The position numbers and the translations under genes were made by a program. A model generated the notes under the pieces. That model ran no database searches, had not been told where the DNA came from, and saw nothing but the letters and a program-made list of their open reading frames with translations. DNA of 64,000 bases from Acidimicrobiia bacterium (GTDB lineage: Bacteria; Actinomycetota; Acidimicrobiia; Spongiisociales; UBA11373): the NCBI GenBank assembly GCA_030584185.1, contig CP129495.1, positions 1,143,628-1,207,627 of the forward strand, written 5' to 3'. This document shows positions 3,966 through 7,082 of the stretch, in pieces. Position 1 is the stretch's first letter. Each line of letters begins with the position of its first letter.

Positions 3966-6900
3966 ATGACCAATCAGGAGCACATCGAGCTCACCGGGCA
4001 CGCATTCGCCCGCCGATTCGCCAACCTCTGCCGGTCGAGTCGTCGCGCTTCGGGCCGAACGCTGCGCTCCCTGGCCCGACACAGTGCTGGGCACTGGGAT
4101 GTCCGCTCCCTGAAGGCCATCGAGGCCGGCACGCACCCGCTCGACGAGTCTCGCGTCGCGTCTCTGGCCGCCCTCTATGGCGTGGACACCACGACCATCC
4201 TGCCCGAGCGGCTGCCGCCGGTCATCGCCAACGGGACCATCACCATCGCCGGCGTCTCGGTCGACTACGACCCCCACAGCTCGACATCGCTGCTCACCGC
4301 CTACCTCGACTTCGTCCGGGAGATGCGCGACCAGCGTCGCGCCCCGTCGATCGAGGTGCGACGGGCTGACATCGACGTCCTCGCCGCCGCCGTCGGGCAG
4401 TCCGGGGAGATCGTCACCGAGCGCCTCGGTGCTCTCATGGGCGCCACCCAGGACCAGCGTCGCGCCATGCTCGCCATGTTCGCTGCCGGAGCAACCGTCA
4501 TCACCCTCGCCACCGGTGCCATCGCCCTGGCACCCCAGAGCGTGAGTCCATCGGCGCCCGCCACCGAACGGTCGGTCCTGGTGTACGAGATCGAGACCGA
4601 GACGATCGACAGCGGAGCCACGACGCCGGCCGAGGTCACCGGAATCGACGGCACTTCCTGGTCCACCAACTGGGCTTGGGAGGACTTCGATGGCGGAGAA
4701 GAGGACCAGGCAGACCGTGGCGAGTCCCATGAGGATTCCGAAACCGGACAGTCCTCGCCTGTCGCCTCTGATCAGGGAGACCAAGGAGACACCGGGGAGG
4801 AGGGCGACACCGACGACTCCGACGACTCCGACGACTCCGACGACTCCGATGACTCCGACGACTCCGGCGACCAGGACGACACCGGCGACCAGGACGACAC
4901 CGGCGACCAGGACGACACCGGCGACCAGGACGACACCGGCGACCAGGACGACACCGGCGACCAGGACGACACCGGCGACCAGGACGACACCGGCGACCAG
5001 GACGACACCGGCGACCAGGACGACACCGGCGACCAGGACGACACCGGCGACCAGGACGACACCGGCGACCAGGACGACACCGGCGACCAGGACGACACCG
5101 GCGACCAGGACGACACCGGCGACCAGGACGACACCGGCGACCAGGACGACACCGGCGACCAGGACGACACCGGCGACCAGGACGACACCGACGACACCGA
5201 CGCCACCCAGGCCCAGGCGACCACGGCACGGATCTATGAGGCCACCACCTCGGTGCCCGACAAGCCCGCCAACCAGAAGTGGATCGCCGACGTCGAGGTC
5301 AAGGTCGCCAACACCCTTGACGGCAACTACAACGCCAACAAGATCCGCAACGCCACGGTGACCGCGACCTGGGCCGCCGGAGACCAAAGCGGCACCGTGA
5401 CCTGCAAGACCAACAGTGCTGGAGCCTGCCGGCTGCGGGTCACCAAGCTGCCCCCCACGGTGGGACAGGTCACCATCACCGTCACCGGCATCAGCGCCGA
5501 CGGCTACACCTACGACGCCGCCGCCGACACCGCCAACACCTGGACCATCGACCGTTACGACGCCGCCACCCAGGCCCAGGCGACCACGGCACGGATCTAT
5601 GAGGCCACCACCTCGGTGCCCGACAAGCCCGCCAACCAGAAGTGGATCGCCGACGTCGAGGTCAAGGTCGCCAACACCCTTGACGGCAACTACAACGCCA
5701 ACAAGATCCGCAACGCCACGGTGACCGCGACCTGGGCCGCCGGAGACCAAAGCGGCACCGTGACCTGCAAGACCAACAGTGCTGGAGCCTGCCGGCTGCG
5801 GGTCACCAAGCTGCCCCCCACGGTGGGACAGGTCACCATCACCGTCACCGGCATCAGCGCCGACGGCTACACCTACGACGCCGCCGCCGACACCGCCAAC
5901 ACCTGGACCATCGACCGTTACGACGCCGCCACCCAGGCCCAGGCGACCACGGCACGGATCTATGAGGCCACCACCTCGGTGCCCGACAAGCCCGCCAACC
6001 AGAAGTGGATCGCCGACGTCGAGGTCAAGGTCGCCAACACCCTTGACGGCAACTACAACGCCAACAAGATCCGCAACGCCACGGTGACCGCGACCTGGGC
6101 CGCCGGAGACCAAAGCGGCACCGTGACCTGCAAGACCAACAGTGCTGGAGCCTGCCGGCTGCGGGTCACCAAGCTGCCCCCCACGGTGGGACAGGTCACC
6201 ATCACCGTCACCGGCATCAGCGCCGACGGCTACACCTACGACGCCGCCGCCGACACCGCCAACACCTGGACCATCGACCGTTACGACGCCGCCACCCAGG
6301 CCCAGGCGACCACGGCACGGATCTATGAGGCCACCACCTCGGTGCCCGACAAGCCCGCCAACCAGAAGTGGATCGCCGACGTCGAGGTCAAGGTCGCCAA
6401 CACCCTTGACGGCAACTACAACGCCAACAAGATCCGCAACGCCACGGTGACCGCGACCTGGGCCGCCGGAGACCAAAGCGGCACCGTGACCTGCAAGACC
6501 AACAGTGCTGGAGCCTGCCGGCTGCGGGTCACCAAGCTGCCCCCCACGGTGGGACAGGTCACCATCACCGTCACCGGCATCAGCGCCGACGGCTACACCT
6601 ACGACGCCGCCGCCGACACCGCCAACACCTGGACCATCGACCGCTACGACGCCGCCGAGGAGGAGCCATCCGCGGATGACACGGGGGACCAGGGCTCAGA
6701 GCAGGGCGGGGACCAGGGGGCGGACGGTGACCAGTCGGACTCGGATCCGGGTAACGGGTCAGGGAACGACAGCCAGTCCCAGGACGATGACACCGGCTCC
6801 AAGGACTCCGACTCCGACAAGGACCAGGGCAAGGGCAACGACGACAAGACGGCCCAGGACGACGACACCGGCTCCAAGGACTCCGGCTCCGACGCCGACC

Positions 6901-7082
6901 AGGGCAAGGGCAACGACGACAAGACGGCCCAGGACGACGACACCGGCTCAAAGGACTCCGACTCCGACAAGGGCAAGGGCAACGACGACAAGACGGCCCA
7001 GGACGACGACACCGGCTCCAAGGACTCCGGCTCCGACTCCGACCAGGGCAAAGGCAACGACGACAAGTCGAAGGACGAGTAG
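3966..7082 (+). CDS. HTH-transmembrane protein with acidic minisatellite and four identical Ig-like modules
   Basis: A 1038-residue mosaic. Residues about 12-75 look like a Cro/C1-type helix-turn-helix ([10 protein letters not shown] ... [12 protein letters not shown]). Residues about 165-190 form one hydrophobic helix ([17 protein letters not shown]), so the HTH should be cytoplasmic and the rest outside. Outside come an acidic linker, six DDS units, 18 GDQDDT units (residues 301-408), four 121-residue modules (413-896) and an acidic Gly/Lys tail with four GSKDS-type repeats. Each module has two Cys and beta-rich sequence, like a bacterial Ig or adhesin domain. The layout resembles RodZ (HTH, membrane helix, extracytoplasmic part), but no RodZ homology is claimed. 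The ATG at 3966 follows GTGGAG; frame-open sequence further upstream lacks coding character. Function unknown. Confidence 0.85.
4812..4865 (+). repeat. 9-bp tandem repeat encoding DDS, six copies
   Basis: Six in-frame GACGACTCC units, the fifth beginning GAT, run directly into the 18-bp repeat array. They encode an acidic Asp/Ser stretch in the extracytoplasmic linker of the HTH/Ig protein. Confidence 0.9.
4866..5189 (+). repeat. 18-bp tandem repeat encoding GDQDDT, 18 copies
   Basis: The array is exactly 324 bp, that is 18 units of GGCGACCAGGACGACACC, with no interruption that I can see. The unit is a multiple of three, so copy-number slippage would change the length of the acidic stalk without breaking the frame. 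Confidence 0.95.
5202..6653 (+). repeat. Four tandem 363-bp repeats encoding identical 121-aa modules
   Basis: Copies run 5202-5564, 5565-5927, 5928-6290 and 6291-6653. The encoded modules are identical in all four. The only nucleotide difference I found is a silent T to C at 6644, in the last copy. Such identity implies recent amplification or ongoing homogenisation. Assemblies may collapse or expand this array. Confidence 0.95.
6783..7079 (+). repeat. Imperfect 69-75 bp repeats encoding the acidic tail
   Basis: Four imperfect units, each starting DDDTGSKDS and ending GKGNDDK, form the C-terminus of the HTH/Ig protein. Units vary in the middle (DSDKDQ, GSDADQ, SDK, GSDSDQ), so this array is older or less homogenised than the 363-bp one. 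Confidence 0.85.

Follow-up and report, generated by a model that had tools for sequence, protein, structure and literature searches.

A putative membrane-anchored BldD paralogue with an acidic stalk and tandem Ig-like modules in an Acidimicrobiia genome

What kind of protein joins a helix-turn-helix (HTH) head to a hydrophobic helix, a long acidic stalk and a series of identical beta-rich modules? The gene that raises this question lies on the plus strand at positions 3966-7082 of the window, the 64,000-nucleotide stretch of an Acidimicrobiia genome (contig CP129495.1) that was analysed here, and its stop-free translation runs to 1038 amino acids. The codon-position G+C over the entire frame (62.8/50.5/90.6%) is like that of the neighbouring genes, and we therefore take this to be the coding frame; for the same reason, an open minus-strand frame of 941 amino acids over the repeats is most likely a by-product of the repetition. 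A GGAG sequence at 3954-3957 stands 8 nt upstream of the ATG, and the homologues start at the same position. The initial annotation had described an HTH-like domain, a single hydrophobic helix, an acidic stalk of 6 and 18 tandem units, four identical beta modules and an acidic tail in one frame. All of these were found, and the unit counts are exact. A second domain between the HTH and the helix, resembling the C-terminal domain (CTD) of BldD, was absent from that description. The protein is thus laid out as a head (residues 1-162), the hydrophobic helix, an acidic linker, the stalk, four 121-residue modules and the tail:

3966-7082, plus strand: whole gene, 1038 amino acids
4005-4205, plus strand: XRE-type HTH, residues 14-80, like the BldD DNA-binding domain
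4215-4439, plus strand: BldD CTD-like region, residues 84-158, with RDQ-X8-RRAD at residues 121-135
4467-4532, plus strand: hydrophobic helix, residues 168-189, probable signal anchor (N-in, C-out)
4536-4805, plus strand: juxtamembrane acidic linker, residues 191-280, net charge -21
4806-5201, plus strand: acidic stalk, residues 281-412, DDS x6 then GDQDDT x18
5202-5564, plus strand: Ig-like module 1, residues 413-533
5565-5927, plus strand: Ig-like module 2, residues 534-654
5928-6290, plus strand: Ig-like module 3, residues 655-775
6291-6653, plus strand: Ig-like module 4, residues 776-896, 1 nt different, same protein
6654-7079, plus strand: acidic repeat tail, residues 897-1038, G[KR]GNDD[KR] x4

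Judged by profile comparisons, the entire cytoplasmic head is a BldD paralogue, BldD-like along its full length. The NCBIfam BldD model covers residues 14-157 (E 1.2e-7) at 31.6 bits, short of its equivalog cut-off of 250 bits, and is matched by 22 of 25 family members. Pfam identifies HTH_31 in the window protein (E 1.1e-5). Further, a profile of the family matches both the BldD DNA-binding domain 2EWT (E 1e-10) and the BldD-CTD crystal chains 4OAY, 5TZF and 5KHD (E 6e-4 to 9e-4). PF21179 (BldD-like_C) is matched by 11 of the 25 members and, by itself, the window protein gives no match to it. The AF2 model folds residues 11-70 as an HTH with pLDDT 85-98, as the initial annotation had anticipated, and places a second small domain beside it with good confidence. 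The best solved match of the HTH in Foldseek was 2EWT (target TM 0.80), which was also the top match in VIA (Z 9.9 over 70 residues, rmsd 1.9). HTH matches filled the lists of these structure-only searches and the BldD CTD chains did not appear in them; homology of the second domain thus rests on the sequence profiles. The earlier remark that no named family has this combination stands for the combination, for which we found no name, and not for the head, which has a named relative over its full length. The same genome encodes a separate, canonical soluble BldD (C1:562355-562786) that retains an intact signature (RQD-X8-RADD) and matches BldD structures across both domains.

Proteins of this architecture recur widely. 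Class- and phylum-wide searches of genomes that were sampled evenly, not exhaustively, returned at least 37 proteins (most relatives being from MAGs) that combine the HTH, the BldD CTD and a membrane helix with varied tails, plus eight that have no HTH. Among 395 genomes of the class, many longer proteins spanned head and helix; in family f9 (Acidimicrobiaceae/Ilumatobacteraceae MAGs), 23 of 150 genomes had matches, with identities of up to 51%, and members outside the class were found phylum-wide (G844, G722 and G673). No further head-plus-helix protein was found among the 138 genomes of the window's own order, whose matches were soluble BldDs, and a scan of genome contigs with the window head alone as query gave no match. 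Weak fusion-like matches in the order (G087, G035, G100) were set aside as a polysaccharide chain-length-type protein and unrelated proteins. A literature search, with most subscription papers outside its scope, returned no description of a membrane-bound or Ilumatobacter BldD. The membrane-anchored family is apparently undescribed: its head, a diverged BldD, is of a known kind, and what we did not find described is a branch whose c-di-GMP signature is altered and which has repeatedly lost the HTH. Two side observations concern the copies themselves. In f9 they are often tandem pairs, with a Thr/Pro-tail copy first and then a second copy, which in some genomes bears the acidic-repeat tail; the pairs at L127, L128, L129 and L130 have the Thr/Pro-tail copy first, and those at L127-L129 adjoin a gene for an SRAP (YedK-like) peptidase. 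In family f19 (L059, L061, L062, L068, L072), the same BldD-like head occurs with no membrane helix; a long Pro-rich region comes after it, and the C-terminal domain appears LamG-like by eye.

The reading that we tentatively prefer, at somewhat less than an even chance, is that the window protein is a type II membrane protein, a membrane-anchored BldD paralogue whose head clusters via its CTD face, rather than a transcription factor of the classical type. What the sequences themselves show is homology, conservation, HTH loss and synteny; export, clustering, ligand and adhesion are steps that we infer.

The CTD offers the first evidence. BldD, the Streptomyces developmental regulator that the signal molecule c-di-GMP switches on (PDB 2EWT, 4OB4, 4OAY, 5KHD, 5TZD), is a soluble repressor whose two protein halves are glued together by c-di-GMP; Arg125 and Asp128 contact one c-di-GMP dimer, Asp116 contacts the other and Arg114 contacts both, and mutation of either motif abolished binding (PMC4151990). 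Like BldD, the window protein has an HTH and a CTD over the whole head, the equivalents of Arg114, Arg125 and Asp128, and the X8 spacing; unlike BldD, it has Asp116 replaced, a diverged recognition helix, a membrane helix and a long outer part. The pattern holds across the family. We compared 37 HTH-bearing membrane members, the window protein included, with 30 soluble BldDs, near-duplicates having been removed. R121, R132 and D135 (BldD R114, R125 and D128) are present in 100% of the membrane set, where mean CTD identity is 38.8%, and the X8 spacing of RXD-X8-RXXD is invariant. At the D116 position, the membrane set has Gln in 62% of cases and almost never Asp, whereas 93% of soluble BldDs have Asp; the window protein, with RDQ-X8-RRAD, departs from the BldD signature accordingly. 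The equivalents of the contacts N118, S123 and R130 are also changed. With these four positions altered, the membrane-set heads are unlikely to bind the BldD-type c-di-GMP tetramer.

A stricter form of our proposal would have a dimer of c-di-GMP, bound at the membrane via R121, R132 and D135, steer the clustering of a surface adhesin from the inside out. The triad and its spacing are invariant, its residues touch one dimer of the c-di-GMP tetramer in BldD (PMC4151990), and the genome has three loci for GGDEF proteins (diguanylate cyclases). This special case is nonetheless quite unlikely, given the changes at D116, N118, S123 and R130 and the loss of binding that followed mutation of either BldD motif; further, the R/R/D triad could be structural in role. 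Since Arg114, Arg125 and Asp128 are kept and Asp116 is lost, the broader proposal of clustering via the CTD face allows that the nucleotide assembly bound by the head is another or a smaller one, or that the heads cluster directly by this face. Self-association would then occur through the same face that holds c-di-GMP in BldD.

The HTH has followed a different course. Mean identity in the recognition helix is 89.1% among soluble BldDs versus 33.9% among the membrane members; the BldD sequence EFKA[AS]V[LV]GAYERGER is not conserved in the window protein, and the helix is acidic in several membrane members. Moreover, eight members retain the CTD and the membrane helix and have no HTH: six from f9, plus L176 and L179. 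No HTH was found in six frames nearby the six f9 genes, whose losses fall in two places in the tree. Assembly gaps do not account for all of the losses, since the HTH-less genomes include two assembled as single contigs, G138 and G722. From these comparisons, what the family conserves as its core is the CTD plus the membrane helix, without the HTH. The latter has probably ceased to work as a specific DNA binder and persists as a remnant with a structural or protein-binding role.

These data bear on the possibility of a membrane-tethered one-component regulator of the CadC/ToxR kind, in which the outer part would sense a surface or ligand and the HTH would bind promoters from the membrane, or else be freed with the head by proteolysis. 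A DNA-binding-type domain tethered by one helix is common to both, and the window HTH folds well, matches the BldD DNA-binding domain and has a net charge of +6; most family members retain an HTH. DNA binding is thus possible, a point that also counts against our own proposal. However, the HTH here is XRE-type rather than a winged helix, its recognition helix is no longer conserved, it has been lost in some relatives that keep the CTD and helix, and the outer parts are mostly low-complexity and unlike one another, with no compact sensor. We consider such a regulator unlikely. Because the conserved core is the CTD and helix, we favour a clustering or ligand-responsive head over a tethered transcription factor.

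Whether the head is in fact anchored depends on the single hydrophobic stretch. Its Kyte-Doolittle maximum is a modest 1.86 (near residues 168-186), and a stretch at the same place is conserved in 30-odd relatives, mostly with values of 1.3-2.6. Positive residues (QRR) precede the helix, the head is folded and extracellular-type modules follow, all of which argue for an N-in/C-out (type II) topology in which the helix would act as a signal anchor. Two features weaken this part of the proposal: the helix is only moderately hydrophobic and has no confident AF2 model, and some relatives have AxA-like sequences at its end (e.g., GSAVAGS), making cleavage possible. The helix could instead be an internal signal sequence that signal peptidase cuts, so that the acidic/Ig-like part would be secreted and the head left behind, free in the cytoplasm or bound to the membrane. 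Although a short, Ala/Gly-rich helix with such ends would suit that role, the hydrophobic stretch of some 20 residues comes after a folded domain of 165 residues, and in more distant members the helix is clearly of the membrane type (Kyte-Doolittle above 2.3). Cleavage seems unlikely to us, and we retain the helix as a probable signal anchor.

Beyond the helix, the protein is acidic and repetitive. The stalk carries a net charge of -70 in 132 residues (TRF period 18, 94% matches), and its 9- and 18-nt units preserve the reading frame when copy number changes; the tail carries -33 in 142 residues. The four modules are 100% identical in protein, and at most 1 nt of the 363 differs between their DNA copies, a sign that they were recently amplified or homogenised. 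The AF2 model of a module is a beta sandwich (pLDDT 85.5), for which structure searches returned generic Ig/FN3-like folds only. Relatives of the module form the C-terminal end of secreted S8 proteases (L078, L079) and are also present in small lipoproteins (L080, L086, L094), both kinds of protein being named by eye from their sequences. The Ig-like domain of those proteases and the module have 33% identity, a W/C/G pattern, a Cys pair and the beta-sandwich fold in common; here, in contrast, there are four near-identical tandem copies in a membrane-anchored protein with no protease. Both cysteines are invariant between the module and its relatives. Such relatives, the Cys pair and the beta-sandwich model support an extracellular location. 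Other matches were discarded: Pfam I-TevI, DUF4140, PIRC1_2 and Adeno_GP19K arose because sub-threshold matches to the repeated modules were added up, with none passing on its own, and NCBIfam collagen-like adhesin matches fall on the low-complexity stalk.

Sdr/MSCRAMM surface proteins have SD-repeat stalks, acidic and Asp-rich, plus Ig-like domains, and the window protein resembles them in this combination. It differs from them in having a stalk that adjoins a membrane helix, a cytoplasmic, regulator-like head and no LPXTG sorting signal at its C-terminal end. In our proposal, the stalk would take the Ig-like domains across the cell wall and past it, and there they may offer a surface that is adhesive or binds cations; the architecture alone suggests adhesion, which is a guess. 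The head would control or stabilise the displayed tail. The earlier reading of a surface protein whose head could bind DNA accordingly survives in one half: an HTH head, a membrane helix and a probably displayed beta/acidic outer part are there, and DNA binding is doubtful given the diverged recognition helix and the eight HTH-less relatives. Two relatives at 48% identity, L099 and L098, have a tail of the same acidic type, and L099 also has the G[KR]GNDD[KR] motif. Elsewhere in the family, GxPP[VLI]P recurs near the C-terminal end of the outer tail in f9 members (L095, L097, L104, L108, L116) and is absent from the window protein and the acidic-tail copies. Two membrane-type members (L054, L055) have a HELGH (HExxH) motif in a metalloprotease-like outer part.

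The initial annotation had also likened the layout to that of RodZ, and indeed both have a cytoplasmic HTH, a single membrane helix and an outer beta part. A RodZ-like morphogenetic protein whose HTH binds a cytoskeletal partner would, moreover, be compatible with a diverged recognition helix. The likeness did not extend to the domains, however: the HTH is of the BldD/HTH_31 type, HTH_25 does not appear when the window protein is compared with Pfam at E up to 1, a Pfam scan of the whole protein gave no match to the RodZ C-terminal beta domain, a BldD CTD is present and the HTH is dispensable within the family. We regard this explanation as extremely unlikely. HTH_25 gives weak matches in 5 of 25 relatives; elsewhere in the genome, its matches are short XRE proteins without the RodZ layout.

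The preferred reading of a clustering, membrane-anchored head can be carried further. In its boldest version, to which we give only a small chance, a transcription factor has become a membrane clustering device: heads glued by a half-size (dimeric) assembly of c-di-GMP or another guanine nucleotide would control a wall-spanning surface protein, while the family is losing its DNA-binding domain. No case in which c-di-GMP glues two protein halves together is better studied than BldD, and the membrane branch, with three of four signature residues kept, the reader of the second dimer dropped and the HTH lost more than once, constitutes a natural experiment on the CTD alone. Through this family, nucleotide signalling may be connected to the actinobacterial cell surface in a new way.

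The surroundings of the gene speak to its origin. A methylase (2685-3569), a small zinc-ribbon ORF (3651-3818) and an Fe-S oxidoreductase (7090-9210) form a block that is also present in relatives of the window's own family. In five of these (L149, L150, L151, L152, L153), the zinc-ribbon ORF and the Fe-S oxidoreductase are direct neighbours, separated by ~60-170 bp; the methylase comes directly next in L149 and L151. The window gene lies by itself, precisely at the junction of the zinc-ribbon ORF with the Fe-S gene. The tree places its protein inside the f9 clade with 100/98 support and separates it from the soluble BldDs with 100/100. A lone gene between genes that adjoin in relatives, grouping with the clade of another family, was probably acquired horizontally; loss in all other members of the order is less likely. 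The closest relative, L147, carries other genes between the Fe-S gene and the methylase, which marks this as a variable site. None of the neighbouring genes explains the function of the window gene, and the neighbours of its relatives (SRAP peptidase, DUF305, NUDIX, DinP, named by eye from sequence) were not informative. Also in the window, at 7-762, is a gene for a DUF2927 protein, in which a 45-nt tandem repeat (48-171) encodes a Thr/Ala-rich N-terminal stretch.
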